Source: a virus
Length of the DNA: 34,438 bases
Strand: one strand, 5' to 3'
Virus record (IMG/VR): IMGVR_UViG_3300034062_002177
Coordinates: 1 to 34,438 of that record
Within the stretch, counting starts at the first letter, position 1, and every line of letters starts with the position of its first letter. A model generated the notes under the pieces. It was not told the origin of the DNA. It made no database searches and worked only from the letters and a program-made list of their open reading frames with translations. This document shows, in pieces, positions 5,197-32,741 of the stretch. Both the position numbers and the translations under genes were made by a program.

Positions 5197-5525
5197 TGTT
5201 CTGTTGGTTTGTAGTTTGAAAATGTTTCCCATGTAGCAAGCAATCGCGGAATAACTGCAATCGCTTTTTCAATGTCAGAACTAAGTGAGTAATTTTTCAG
5301 CTCCAGCCATGTGCCGTCATTAGCCTCTCCGCAAAGCTCAATCTCGAAAGATTCATTGTCGTCGTGTTTGTAGTAGTTTACACAAACCTGCATACCCTCT
5401 TTGTCGTCGTTGCAACTGCACCGCGTTGGGGTGTTGTATCGCTTGTAAAAGCAGCGTGCATGTGGTTTGAATCGGTTTGGATATTCTGTCCATCCTTCGT
5501 TTTTTAGGTGTTGTATCGTGTTCAT
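5193..5525 (-). CDS. Hypothetical 110-aa early protein
   Basis: It begins MNTIQHLKNEGWTEYPN. A middle part carries cysteines (RCSCNDDKEGMQVCVNYYK) and beta-rich sequence (FEIELCGEANDGTWLELKNYSL). The C-terminal helix (DIEKAIAVIPRLLATWETF) completes it. No family recognised. The leader contains no Shine-Dalgarno. Confidence 0.6.
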   Translation of the reverse strand: MNTIQHLKNEGWTEYPNRFKPHARCFYKRYNTPTRCSCNDDKEGMQVCVNYYKHDDNESFEIELCGEANDGTWLELKNYSLSSDIEKAIAVIPRLLATWETFSNYKPTEQ

Positions 5526-9138: not shown

Positions 9139-9398
9139 GCCTCCTCCTTTCTAGCTGCTAGCATTGCGTCTGCGTATTCATAACACGTTGATGCTTGAAC
9201 TATTGTGTCATCGCTTCTTTCTTCCTCTGCATTGCCATACTTAGCAAGCAATCCCTGCAAAGCCGCCGCCGCGAAGTAGTCGCGTAGAGTCATTCCTTCT
9301 GCACTGTGCATGATCTCGCAAGGTCTCAGCCATCCGTGAGATTCGCTAAATATTGGAGTTACTGGAAACGCCGCCCCGCCATCTTCAATCTTGCTCAT
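9135..9398 (-). CDS. Hypothetical 87-aa phage protein between RecT and exonuclease
   Basis: It starts MSKIEDGGAAFPVTP and contains GMTLRDYFAAAALQGLLAKYG and ADAMLAARK, a pattern common to small conserved phage proteins of unknown function. AAGGAGGTGA lies before the ATG, inside the end of recT. It is coupled by ATGA to both neighbours. Confidence 0.7.
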   Translation of the reverse strand: MSKIEDGGAAFPVTPIFSESHGWLRPCEIMHSAEGMTLRDYFAAAALQGLLAKYGNAEEERSDDTIVQASTCYEYADAMLAARKEEA

Positions 9399-10165
9399 GC
9401 CTCACCTCCTTCCTCTGTCGTGGCTTCGATCGCTGGCAGCATCGGCGCGAACGGATTGATTGCCTCGGCACGAACTGTCGGAGTGACGTTGCGAGCTTGT
9501 GCAAACTCACGATCTTCATCCGTGCGGATCGCGTCTTGGATCTCAGGTGATAGCGGTAGCCATTTCGATGCTCGGCGAAATACGGTCTTTTTTGCCATCT
9601 CGTCGAAGTCTGACACCCACGGTCCAGAGTTCCCAGCGCGGGAACGCTTGCGGATGCCTTCAACTTCATCGCGCGTCATGACCTCGCACTTCTCACTGCC
9701 GTCCTTGAATGTCACGATGACATAGAAAGCGTAGGCGTTACCGCGTGGCGCTTTGTAGTCAACGACATGCTGCTCGATCTTGCCGCGGTTGACGACGAAT
9801 TGATCTTGCTCGCAAACTTTGTCGGCGTGAATGCTAGTGACCGTGCCGCTGCGCATGACCAGCTCGGCAATGCCTTTGTAGTCGAGAATGAGCGTGCATT
9901 CTTTGCCGTAGGGTATCAAGTGCGCTCTGCGACCGTCTGGTTCGATGCCTAGTGCGCTTAGATCCAGCAGACAGCGCATGAAGCTTTCGGGCGTGCAGTC
10001 CTGCAACTTCGGCGTGCGTGTCAATGCTGTGATGGCAACGCGAGCGAAGCGGTCTGCGCTCAGGTGCTTTGGCAATGCCAGAGCGAATTGGTTTTTGACG
10101 TTATCCTCGGAAAGCAGTCCTTTGAGTGTCCGAGGTTTGGCGATTTGTGTGTTTTCTGTTGTCAT
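9395..10165 (-). CDS. recT: RecT-family single-strand annealing protein
   Basis: The 256-aa protein follows the RecT layout: LKGLLSEDNVKNQFALALPKHL at the start, then RVAITALTRTPKLQDCTPESFM, LGIEPDGRRAHLIPYG, and a C-terminal DEMAKKTVFRRASKWLP. It binds single-stranded DNA and anneals homologous strands, working with the YqaJ-type nuclease downstream. The start is preceded by CCAAACTACCAC rather than a Shine-Dalgarno. Its last codons (TEEGGEA) encode the ribosome binding site of the next gene. Confidence 0.93.
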   Translation of the reverse strand: MTTENTQIAKPRTLKGLLSEDNVKNQFALALPKHLSADRFARVAITALTRTPKLQDCTPESFMRCLLDLSALGIEPDGRRAHLIPYGKECTLILDYKGIAELVMRSGTVTSIHADKVCEQDQFVVNRGKIEQHVVDYKAPRGNAYAFYVIVTFKDGSEKCEVMTRDEVEGIRKRSRAGNSGPWVSDFDEMAKKTVFRRASKWLPLSPEIQDAIRTDEDREFAQARNVTPTVRAEAINPFAPMLPAIEATTEEGGEA

Positions 10166-11885: not shown

Positions 11886-11917
11886 TTTCTTGGTAGTTGG
11901 TGTCGGGTGACGCGCAA

Positions 11918-11947
11918 AGAATAGTCGAAAACCTTGCAAAGTGTAAA
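11918..11947 (-). promoter_or_regulatory. Main leftward early promoter
   Basis: Minus-strand TTTACA (11947-11942), 18 bases, then TATTCT (11923-11918). The box and spacer start (GCTTTACACTTTGCAAGG) are nearly the same as at 4575-4604. An A/T-rich stretch upstream (about 11950-11995) could act as an UP element. Expected start near 11911, giving a 26-base leader to the first gene. Confidence 0.65.
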
Positions 11948-12008
11948 GCATAAATCGCAATTATTTTTCAGATTTTTTATTTTTCTATATTCTACAAGGG
12001 TTCCAGAA

Positions 12009-12050
12009 CGGGAAATTTGCACTTCCCGAACGGGAAATCTGAAATTCCCG
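12009..12050. promoter_or_regulatory. Two tandem 20-bp palindromes, probable operator
   Basis: CGGGAA (12009-12014) pairs with TTCCCG (12023-12028), and CGGGAA (12031-12036) pairs with TTCCCG (12045-12050). The two palindromes have identical arms, identical 8-base spacing and a 22-base period, about two helical turns. They lie between the leftward early promoter and the rightward small-RNA promoter. This is the form of a dimeric repressor site bound by two dimers. Confidence 0.7.
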
Positions 12051-12060
12051 TGTCAACCAT

Positions 12061-12080
12061 ACGTCCGATTTACGTCCGAT
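12061..12080. repeat. Tandem 9-bp direct repeat with 11-bp period
   Basis: ACGTCCGAT occurs at 12061-12069 and again at 12072-12080. The one-turn spacing would place two identical protein contacts on the same DNA face, upstream of the plus-strand promoter. Confidence 0.5.
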
Positions 12081-12107
12081 GATACCGGTCATGCTCGATA
12101 TCTGAGC

Positions 12108-12135
12108 TTGAATTTACCCGATTCTCTGGTATTAT
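12108..12135 (+). promoter_or_regulatory. Rightward promoter for a small RNA
   Basis: TTGAAT (12108-12113), 16 bases, then TATTAT (12130-12135), five of six matching the -10 consensus. Expected start is about 12142. No acceptable protein gene follows, but a structured stretch and a terminator do. Confidence 0.55.
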
Positions 12136-12141
12136 TCTCGC

Positions 12142-12297
12142 GAACTTGCGAAACGCAGCATTGCGCGTAGTAAGTGGGATTCCCGCCCCGACTGAAAGTT
12201 GGCTCCATGTCATGACGAAAGCTAGGTCGGGTGCGGGTATCCAATCTCAGCAGATCCCCCAGGCCTCTCGACGATGCACACTTGGGGGATATTTTTT
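12142..12297 (+). ncRNA. Putative structured small RNA on the plus strand, about 155 nt
   Basis: Between the 12108-12135 promoter and the terminator at 12254-12297 lies sequence that folds strongly. A TGCG-AAA-CGCA hairpin is near the start. A 15-pair stem follows: GGAT (12177-12180) with ATCC (12239-12242), CCCGC (12182-12186) with GCGGG (12233-12237), and CCCGAC (12187-12192) with GTCGGG (12226-12231), enclosing a 33-base loop with the palindrome GTCATGAC. The terminator hairpin ends it. It is the only plus-strand gene candidate. Short ORFs inside lack ribosome binding sites. I do not recognise an RNA family. An immunity or regulatory RNA is possible by analogy with antisense control RNAs of P4 and P1, but no complementary target was found by eye. 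Confidence 0.5.
12254..12297 (+). terminator. Factor-independent terminator, rightward
   Basis: ATCCCCCAGG (12254-12263) pairs with CTTGGGGGAT (12281-12290), ten pairs with one G-T, followed by a T6 run at 12292-12297. The T-run exists only on the plus strand, so it stops rightward transcription although no rightward protein gene precedes it. Confidence 0.75.
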
Positions 12298-12311
12298 CAC
12301 AAAACTGATAG

Positions 12312-12342
12312 AAAAAAACCCCGCCAGTGGTCACTAGCGGGG
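12312..12342 (-). terminator. Factor-independent terminator of the late operon
   Basis: On the minus strand CCCCGCTAGTG pairs with CACTGGCGGGG around a two-base loop (one mismatch), followed by TTTTTTT. It lies about 95 bases after the last late gene and ends leftward transcription before the control region. It faces the rightward terminator at 12254-12297. The stretch 12343-12436 holds no gene; a TTGACT-like box is seen in it but no convincing promoter. Confidence 0.9.
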
Positions 12343-12436
12343 CTGAATGGCTAAGTCTGGTTCGCTTCGCAAGAGTCGCGCAACTAGCACTGTCGCGGGA
12401 AAACCTAGCGCAATCGGGCGCGGAGTCAAGGCATAA

Positions 12437-31015: not shown

Positions 31016-31428
31016 TTTTTCGCTTTGCCCTTTGCTAGTTCAACGAGTGCGGCAAGATTGACTTCCTGCTCTGGCGAAAGTGAAACAGTCGCTTGAGTAA
31101 TCGGAGCGCCGTCTGGACCGCTGATCTCTTGCTTGTCAGCCTGTCCGAGCATGTTTTTGCCGAGGAAAATGAGCATCGTGACATTGCCAGCGAGCGCCAC
31201 CTCGATCTGTTTTTTCCGCAATCTCGTTTTCCCGTTCTCCCGTCCTTTTGTAATTTCAGCCGCAAAATTTCGTTCAATCGTGTCCGTGGAACAATTACAC
31301 GCTGCCGCAATCTCCTTGTTGCTGCACCCGATGGACGCGAGCTGTTCAACCAGCCGAGGATCGACGTTCGCCTTTGGTCTGCCTACTTTCGCTGGTTCAG
31401 TATCGATTGGTTTCTTTTTGCTGCTCAT
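31012..31428 (-). CDS. terS: Terminase small subunit
   Basis: The 138-aa protein has a basic start with GRPK, a helix-turn-helix (QLASIGCSNKEIAAACNCSTDTIERNF at residues about 29-55), and a helical oligomerisation part (RLRKKQIEVALAGNVTMLIFLGKN). A charged C-terminus follows. It recognises the packaging start and hands DNA to the large subunit. Order with the GIY-YIG and large terminase genes confirms it. Confidence 0.8.
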   Translation of the reverse strand: MSSKKKPIDTEPAKVGRPKANVDPRLVEQLASIGCSNKEIAAACNCSTDTIERNFAAEITKGRENGKTRLRKKQIEVALAGNVTMLIFLGKNMLGQADKQEISGPDGAPITQATVSLSPEQEVNLAALVELAKGKAKK

Positions 31429-32741
31429 GATTCATATGATTCTATTGCGGAGCCTTCCTGCTGCGCTTTGAGTTCGTCGAACGTCTTGCCGCTGGCTTCG
31501 TGGATCGCCTGCTTGCCAGTGAAGTCCTGCCAGCGTTTTACTATTACATCGTTGTAATCAGGAGAAAGCTCCATGAGGAATCCACTCTTCCCTTTCTTTT
31601 CACACGCAAGAAGCGTCGAACCGCTACCTCCGAAAAGATCAATTACGGTTTTGCATTCCTTGCCGTATTCATCAAAACACCATTCAGCAAGCGCAACTGG
31701 CTTCTGTGTAGGATGCACACGCTTTTGCCCATGCTCCGAAGCTTTAACCATTCCGTTCCACATATGCTGAAATAATCGGACAGCGGTTTTTTGATTCGTC
31801 CACGCAAGTTCTGCGTCCGCAAAATTACCAGAATTCTTCTTGTCCCATACTATCCAGCAGGAAGAGTTCGGAAGGTGTGAGGCGTAGTAGTTGCCGCCCC
31901 ATATAATTTCAACTACTGCTCCTAGTGTTGCGATTACCTGTATCGCCTCAACCGCTGTGTCAATCGTTTCATCCCCAATCACTTGCGAGAAGTTACTTGA
32001 TTCTATCACATTTGATTTGTCCCTTTTCTCGTTTTTCTTTCCCCCGAAAGCACCGCCCCCCCCTACCTTCTTTCCGCTAACAATAGAAATGCCATAAGGA
32101 GGATCAGTAAAAACCATGTCGGCCTTCTGCCCATCCATCAGCTTGTTCACCGCATCAATGCTCGTTGAATCCCCGCACATTAGCCGATGATTTCCCATGA
32201 TCCAAACGTCTCCGAGCACAGTCACCGGATTGACTGGTGGTTCTGGCACCTCGTCTGGATCGGTTTCGCCTTCGATTGTTTCTGTGAGCAAGTCGGCAAG
32301 CTCTGATTCATCAAAACCAGTCAGAGATAAATCAAAATTGTCATCTTGCAATTCTGCCAACTCCAGCGCAAGCATTGAATCATCCCATCCGCTGTTGAGT
32401 GCCAGCTTGTTATCAGCGATGACGTAAGCCTTGCGCTGCGTCTCTGTCAAGTGATCCAGTCGAATGCACGGCACCTCGGTGAGTCCGAGCTTCTGCGCTG
32501 CCATGATGCGACCGTGACCGGCGATGATGCCGTTCTCTGCGTCGATCAGCACCGGGTTAGTAAATCCAAACTCTCGGATGCTGCCTGCAATCTGTGCCAC
32601 TTGTGCCTCGCTATGTGTCCTGCTATTCCGCGCGTATGGGATCAGTGAGTCGGTTTTGAGTATTTCTATTTTCGGTTTGTTTTTCATGACGTAGTTTTCT
32701 CTTGACGTGTTTTTCTCTGTTGGTAAAATCTTGGTTATCAC
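31425..32741 (-). CDS. ParB-like domain fused to an N6/N4 DNA methyltransferase
   Basis: A 438-aa fusion. Residues about 24-120 hold a ParB-like domain (SLIPYARNSRTHSE, GIIAGHGRIMAAQ). From about residue 175 comes a DNA methyltransferase with DPPY at about 213-216 (catalytic motif IV), then HPTQKP and DLFGGSGST near 370 (S-adenosylmethionine binding), the beta-class order. A Gly-rich loop (VGGGGAFGG) follows DPPY. It starts at a GTG in a GTGA overlap with the MuF-like gene; an internal ATG at 32687 is possible. Likely methylates phage DNA to avoid host restriction or mark packaging. No partner endonuclease is visible. Confidence 0.88.
   Translation of the reverse strand: MITKILPTEKNTSRENYVMKNKPKIEILKTDSLIPYARNSRTHSEAQVAQIAGSIREFGFTNPVLIDAENGIIAGHGRIMAAQKLGLTEVPCIRLDHLTETQRKAYVIADNKLALNSGWDDSMLALELAELQDDNFDLSLTGFDESELADLLTETIEGETDPDEVPEPPVNPVTVLGDVWIMGNHRLMCGDSTSIDAVNKLMDGQKADMVFTDPPYGISIVSGKKVGGGGAFGGKKNEKRDKSNVIESSNFSQVIGDETIDTAVEAIQVIATLGAVVEIIWGGNYYASHLPNSSCWIVWDKKNSGNFADAELAWTNQKTAVRLFQHMWNGMVKASEHGQKRVHPTQKPVALAEWCFDEYGKECKTVIDLFGGSGSTLLACEKKGKSGFLMELSPDYNDVIVKRWQDFTGKQAIHEASGKTFDELKAQQEGSAIESYES

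Follow-up and report, generated by a model that had tools for sequence, protein, structure and literature searches.

What would a phage gain from a small structured RNA encoded opposite to the genes around it? The question is raised by a 34,438-base virus record (IMG/VR IMGVR_UViG_3300034062_002177), which was analysed over its full length and is referred to below as the window. Here, a 550-nt gap (11886-12436) flanked by leftward genes carries an RNA gene on the plus strand. An earlier interpretation of this DNA, made without database searches (the sequence-only reading), had taken it for a possibly new small RNA, perhaps a phage regulatory or immunity RNA. We argue, with a probability of roughly 0.7, that this small-RNA gene of the phage is built around an orphan AbiF antitoxin hairpin, a decoy that would neutralise the AbiF of the host in trans. 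This proposal comes close to the suggested regulatory or immunity role, in a more specific form.

The locus includes the following features:

12060..12087, plus strand: direct repeats TACGTCCGAT... / TTTACGTCCGATGAYACCG, immediately 5' of the promoter
12108..12135, plus strand: promoter TTGAAT (12108-12113), 16 nt, TATTAT (12130-12135), from a consensus scan
12141..12177, plus strand: 5' hairpin module with an internal loop, pairs 12144-12149/12170-12175 and 12154-12157/12162-12165
12177..12245, plus strand: long interrupted stem with a 31-nt loop, 12177-12193 with 12225-12242, 16 pairs, from the fold
12254..12290, plus strand: abiF-type antitoxin hairpin (RF03085-like), doubling as terminator, outer stem 12254-12261/12283-12290
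12292..12297, plus strand: T6 run, transcript end, from the sequence
12317..12344, minus strand: terminator of the converging leftward operon, from a terminator scan

An RNA gene opposite to its neighbors

The promoter, the interrupted stem and the terminal hairpin with its T6 run are all present on the plus strand where the sequence-only reading had placed them, the stem having 16 pairs and a 31-nt loop instead of the 15 pairs and 33 bases given there. The -10 element is of the extended type, preceded by TG (TGGTATTAT), and the predicted start is at about 12142. Taken by itself, the promoter match is no better than those in shuffled sequence (6 found versus 4.8 expected in the consensus scan). 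In the relatives, however, which are viral contigs reached through the neighboring proteins, either the identical promoter or an alternative one (TTGACA/TATTCT) occupies the corresponding place. The repeats at 12060-12087 are kept as well, with a varying copy number, and might represent a candidate operator, iterons or other regulatory sites. Further upstream, at 12008-12050, GGGAAATCTGC-type repeats lie within a conserved leader 5' of a leftward gene. On the other side, the leftward operon on the right has its own terminator (12344-12317), so that the RNA gene is a self-contained, insulated convergent unit.

The plus strand of 12142-12300 folds with a z-score of -2.96, 1 of 200 shuffles being equally good, and the fold of the minus strand is weaker (z -1.73). 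Protein coding on the plus strand was considered and rejected: no plus frame stays free of stops across the relatives, hence the locus is non-coding. Neither a tRNA nor any other Rfam family was found in the window at the gathering threshold, and the phage DNA collection contained no near relative of the window. The reality of the locus is settled by the recurrence of the promoter and the terminal hairpin in more than 20 related phage contigs and by compensatory changes in the 5' and terminal hairpins. Thus, the claim of a structured plus-strand RNA opposite to the genes is strongly supported by the fold, the relatives and the compensatory changes. Elsewhere in the window, a minus-strand gene (31425-32741) encodes a fusion protein of a ParB-like nuclease domain and a DNA methyltransferase.

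The terminal hairpin is of the abiF type

The Rfam family RF03085 (abiF RNA) matches positions 12255-12290 of the window at 32.0 bits under a lax threshold, that is, below the curated gathering cut-off of 37 bits, with an E-value of 9.6e-6 when the whole genome record is searched. In view of this score, we class the hairpin as an abiF-type homologue and not as a curated RF03085 member; the cut-off is passed by 15 of the 24 phage contigs with such an RNA, up to 52.9 bits in contig L153. The window hairpin possesses the consensus stem, the inner short helix and the conserved loop of the family, except that the inner helix has lost its closing pair and that a G.A stands at 12262/12278, a position that is paired in most copies. 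On the plus strand at 5322-5341, inside a leftward gene, part of the abiF loop is weakly matched (15.4 bits, E 0.12); this match and a similar weak one in the relative G002 are probably due to chance.

Across 19 sequences, 98.6% of the cells of the terminal hairpin pair, slid controls collapse, and 22 double-change cells are seen as compared to 5.5 in shuffles, none of 500 shuffles reaching 22. The stem pairs covary and the loop is nearly invariant, although this invariance is partly built in, since part of the set was collected through the loop pattern. In L028 and L031, both found via proteins, the loop is identical in type and the stems are compensated. Such variation is the reverse of what would be expected from a plain terminator. 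The T-run and the capacity to terminate, as originally described, stand; the view of this element as a mere terminator does not, because it appears to be an informative antitoxin-type hairpin. Likewise, the RNA is indeed a small RNA but not a wholly new one, given that its terminal hairpin is of the abiF type; accordingly, its target is likely to be a host toxin protein rather than the early leaders that had been considered.

Exchangeable modules around a constant hairpin

Two blocks stand out as conserved when the relatives are aligned, one being the repeats 5' of the promoter and the other the terminal hairpin (12246-12297); the stretch between them is swapped for other sequence in many relatives. 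Both the 5' hairpin and the long stem precede the abiF hairpin in the window and in some ten relatives; in L003, L031, L038, L110 and L150, the 5' hairpin is the sole element ahead of it in the one transcript; in L026 and L217, a different leader comes ahead of the long stem; and in L024, L027, L028, L056, L123 and L139, the hairpin comes almost directly after the promoter. The persistence of promoter and hairpin where the upstream modules are absent, as in L024, where the promoter leads straight to the hairpin, counts in favor of the decoy. Contig L153 shows the order 5' hairpin, abiF hairpin, long stem, second abiF hairpin, so that a single transcript (9279-9449) contains two abiF-type hairpins with differing 3'-strand types. 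The unit was not found beside the flanking genes of the window in L031, L038, L110, L118, L136, L150, L151 and L153. The terminal hairpin is, then, the constant element among the relatives.

The 5' hairpin, which was found in 20 viral contigs, is itself supported by covariation: in a set of just 8 sequences, drawn from a small number of lineages, pairing holds in 97.5% of cells, and the 8 double-change cells were equalled in 0 of 500 shuffles. A motif for the long stem was detected in 17 viral contigs; of these, 16 come from the phage set studied, and the match in L218 looks like chance. The long stem is 96.6% paired across 11 relatives, but with single-sided changes only and zero double changes, so that covariation speaks neither for nor against it; the changes include G-U pairs that could not form on the minus strand, which favors the plus strand without amounting to proof by covariation. 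Compensating changes in related phages, named by the sequence-only reading as the check on the stems, are therefore seen in the 5' and terminal hairpins and not in the long stem. The sequence-only reading had also named a stem that is not conserved in related phages as grounds for refutation: the long stem is indeed absent in many relatives (L024, L003, L031, L038, L056 and L110), and the terminal hairpin is retained in them.

Neither of the two upstream modules is in Rfam, and their models (R1 and R2) gave no convincing match in 289 Verrucomicrobiales genomes; the best R1 match, L215, lies within a 704-aa reading frame and was taken as chance. The 5' hairpin pattern had zero matches in the bacterial genome contig collection. 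Mimicry of a CRISPR repeat by the long stem was also considered and set aside, there being scattered single matches and no arrays in the 289 Verrucomicrobiales genomes, a comparison that diverged repeats could escape. Both modules appear to have no known counterpart among RNAs.

Additional elements were observed in some relatives. An extra promoter-RNA-terminator unit lies 5' of the 5' hairpin in L003, L110, L153 and L158, with the terminator GACCGCATC...GATGCGGTC and a conserved loop GCGTTGGGANNNCTCAGCGG; a search pattern for this second terminator was dropped, as it also matches unrelated sequence (L219-L222). In L012 (2854-2925, minus strand, and adjoining sequence) and at the corresponding site and strand of L011, tRNA-like genes stand in place of the abiF RNA; one of these is scored as a tRNA by Rfam (35 bits) and neither by ARAGORN, and the other one has an apparently unusual anticodon loop. 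It can be imagined, as a rather doubtful extension, that the locus functions as an RNA cassette for counter-defence, assembled in a mix-and-match manner, with each module (the 5' hairpin, the long stem, the GACCGCATC unit of L003, L110 and L153, the tRNA-like genes of L011 and L012, and one or two abiF hairpins) serving as a decoy for a different RNA-controlled defence, the modules being swapped as defences change.

Antitoxin-type hairpins without a toxin

Is there a toxin for this antitoxin? No Abi_2 gene (PF07751) was detected in the window record, and no HEPN protein was found by Pfam among the ten proteins around the RNA. Unlike the norm for RF03085, the hairpin is not directly upstream of an AbiF/Abi_2 gene; a toxin and an RNA antitoxin encoded together, as in type III toxin-antitoxin systems, are thus not seen in the window. 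Of the 80 different viral contigs in which the abiF loop motif was found, some of them short, 78 likewise lack Abi_2; this set was defined by the loop motif, and the covariance model did not score every member as abiF. The remaining two, G338 and G355, have the toxin adjoining the RNA, as in ordinary AbiF operons, which shows that the search detects real AbiF systems. Matches to abiF RNA in phage genomes should, therefore, not be taken for complete AbiF systems.

Orphan abiF-type RNA occurs in many unrelated phages, isolates included. Hairpins were found in the Aeromonas phages PZL-Ah8 (50.1 bits) and PT2 (44.4 bits), in the Salicola phage CGphi29 (50.1 bits) and, below the cut-off, in the Rhizobium phage Pasto (30.3 bits), none of the four having Abi_2. 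In the T7-like PZL-Ah8 and PT2 (L223, L226), the hairpin is located immediately ahead of the capsid assembly gene and, in PZL-Ah8, directly behind ACTATAGGGATAACAC, which by its sequence we take to be a T7-type promoter. For the cyanophage S-CREM1, an abiF sRNA was reported earlier (PMC9964418). A region of the lactococcal phage sk1 has been reported to protect another phage from AbiF, according to a title cited in PMC12737573; no abiF-type hairpin was found in sk1, and sk1 was dropped as a precedent.

Could the hairpin be what is left of a decayed AbiF system, or else a terminator that moves from phage to phage, with no function against AbiF? The absent toxin gene, the score of the window copy under the cut-off and the T-run that ends the hairpin and would enable it to terminate transcription all fit such an origin. 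However, compensatory stem changes combined with a near-fixed loop are not expected from decay or plain termination, and the hairpin is found in unrelated phages and behind its own promoter in phages whose other modules differ, so that we regard this explanation as improbable. A still less probable one is that the RNA is an antisense sRNA that base-pairs with phage or host genes, the abiF-like hairpin being just an Hfq-type terminator tail. The size, the promoter and the T-run would suit a bacterial sRNA, and the two 5' modules are left unexplained by an antitoxin; yet what is conserved across the relatives is the abiF loop, with no variable seed, and L024 and L056 have the hairpin alone behind the promoter.

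AbiF in the likely host and a possible decoy mechanism

The window terminase shares 60-62% identity with copies from Luteolibacter and 45% with that of an Akkermansia phage; judged solely from this similarity, the host most likely belongs to the order Verrucomicrobiales. Abi_2 was found in 52 of 289 Verrucomicrobiales genomes and abiF RNA in 17 of the 289, a lower bound in view of the stricter filters used for the RNA. By comparison of coordinates, 11 of these 17 genomes have the RNA immediately 5' of Abi_2 and in the same orientation, and the T-run at the end of its hairpin lies a few dozen bases ahead of the Abi_2 start codon. The likely host order thus has AbiF systems that bear such hairpins. 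One host AbiF retains an RNxxxH motif and is related over its length (E 2.8e-48) to PDB 8vz6, an Abi family protein solved with its ncRNA (PMC12737573). The first hairpin of L153 is identical to the host hairpin L176 at 44 of 46 positions, and the window hairpin agrees with the nearest sampled host hairpin in 38 of 48 aligned columns (about 80% identity); the phage RNA looks like the antitoxin RNA belonging to a defence present in the host group. Some host abiF promoters (L175, L176, L182, L183) apparently contain a palindrome, TCGCACATTGTGCGA, between -35 and -10, possibly an operator for AbiF induction.

Taken together, these observations describe an abiF-type hairpin with a fixed loop and a covarying stem, set behind a promoter opposite to the genes, in phages that lack AbiF. 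The presence of an antitoxin-like RNA without its toxin gene suggests that the phage probably disarms an abortive-infection defence of the host. In C. difficile, AbiF is neutralised by the abiF RNA RCd22, which acts both in cis and in trans through binding of the protein; the stem is required for this, whereas its precise sequence is not (PMC12373285). The selection pattern of the phage hairpin matches this requirement, which, together with the antitoxin mimic of phage PhiTE (see below), argues for a decoy antitoxin. The RNA would be made from the phage's own promoter during infection and would bind the HEPN ribonuclease AbiF, replacing or outnumbering the antitoxin RNA of the host; AbiF would be held inactive, and abortive infection would fail. 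The 5' hairpin and the long stem would be accessory modules of the same transcript, with candidate roles in RNA stability, avoidance of processing by AbiF, or action on other targets. Against the decoy, we count the window score below the cut-off, the G.A at 12262/12278, the identity of only about 80% to the nearest sampled host hairpin, the assignment of the host from terminase similarity and the case of sk1. It seems least probable of all that the RNA tames AbiF for the benefit of the phage, keeping it off for the phage itself and usable against competitors, or is an RNA-only partner of a prophage AbiF in the same cell: whole AbiF operons do exist in some prophages (G338, G355; see also PMC12373285), but no co-resident toxin is known, and orphan hairpins are also found in T7-like phages annotated as Autographiviridae, which are expected to be lytic.

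Comparison with known systems

AbiF is common in bacteria and is regarded as the ancestor of Cas13. With the RF03085 RNAs (RCd22, PbAbiFr), the window RNA shares the two-part hairpin, the loop GCCUCUC...GA.GC, the bulge in the 3' strand, the covarying stem and the T-run terminator; it differs from them in having no adjoining abiF toxin gene, a promoter of its own that is not linked to a toxin, the extra 5' hairpin and long stem, and a copy that scores under the cut-off. In the pseudo-ToxI of phage PhiTE, likewise, a phage non-coding RNA resembles a host type III antitoxin RNA, and it was shown to block abortive infection by ToxIN via antitoxin mimicry (PMC3475682). There, the toxin is ToxN instead of the HEPN protein AbiF and the RNA fold is different; such a block by the window RNA is a prediction. 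The RNA anti-CRISPRs, or Racrs (PMC10651486), are also solitary phage RNAs that mimic the RNA part of a host defence, but they imitate CRISPR repeats, and the long stem of the window has no match to a repeat array. The abiF sRNA of S-CREM1 (PMC9964418) is an annotated member of the same family in a lytic phage; it consists of the hairpin only and, in the available part of that source, is an annotation with no assigned role against AbiF.

Hence, mimicry of a type III antitoxin by phage RNA and the annotation of abiF RNA in one phage were already known. As far as the literature searched shows, the novel points are the proposed action against AbiF, the breadth of such RNAs across phages and the composite RNA with 5' modules; no phage answer to AbiF in the form of an RNA was found in that literature. 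If the decoy proposal is correct, a hairpin of some 40 nt enables many phages, T7-like ones included, to disarm AbiF, which would then be a real selective pressure on phages, and such hairpins would make it possible to test directly whether AbiF is a defence against phages. RNA mimicry would, in that case, extend from ToxIN and CRISPR to the HEPN toxins.
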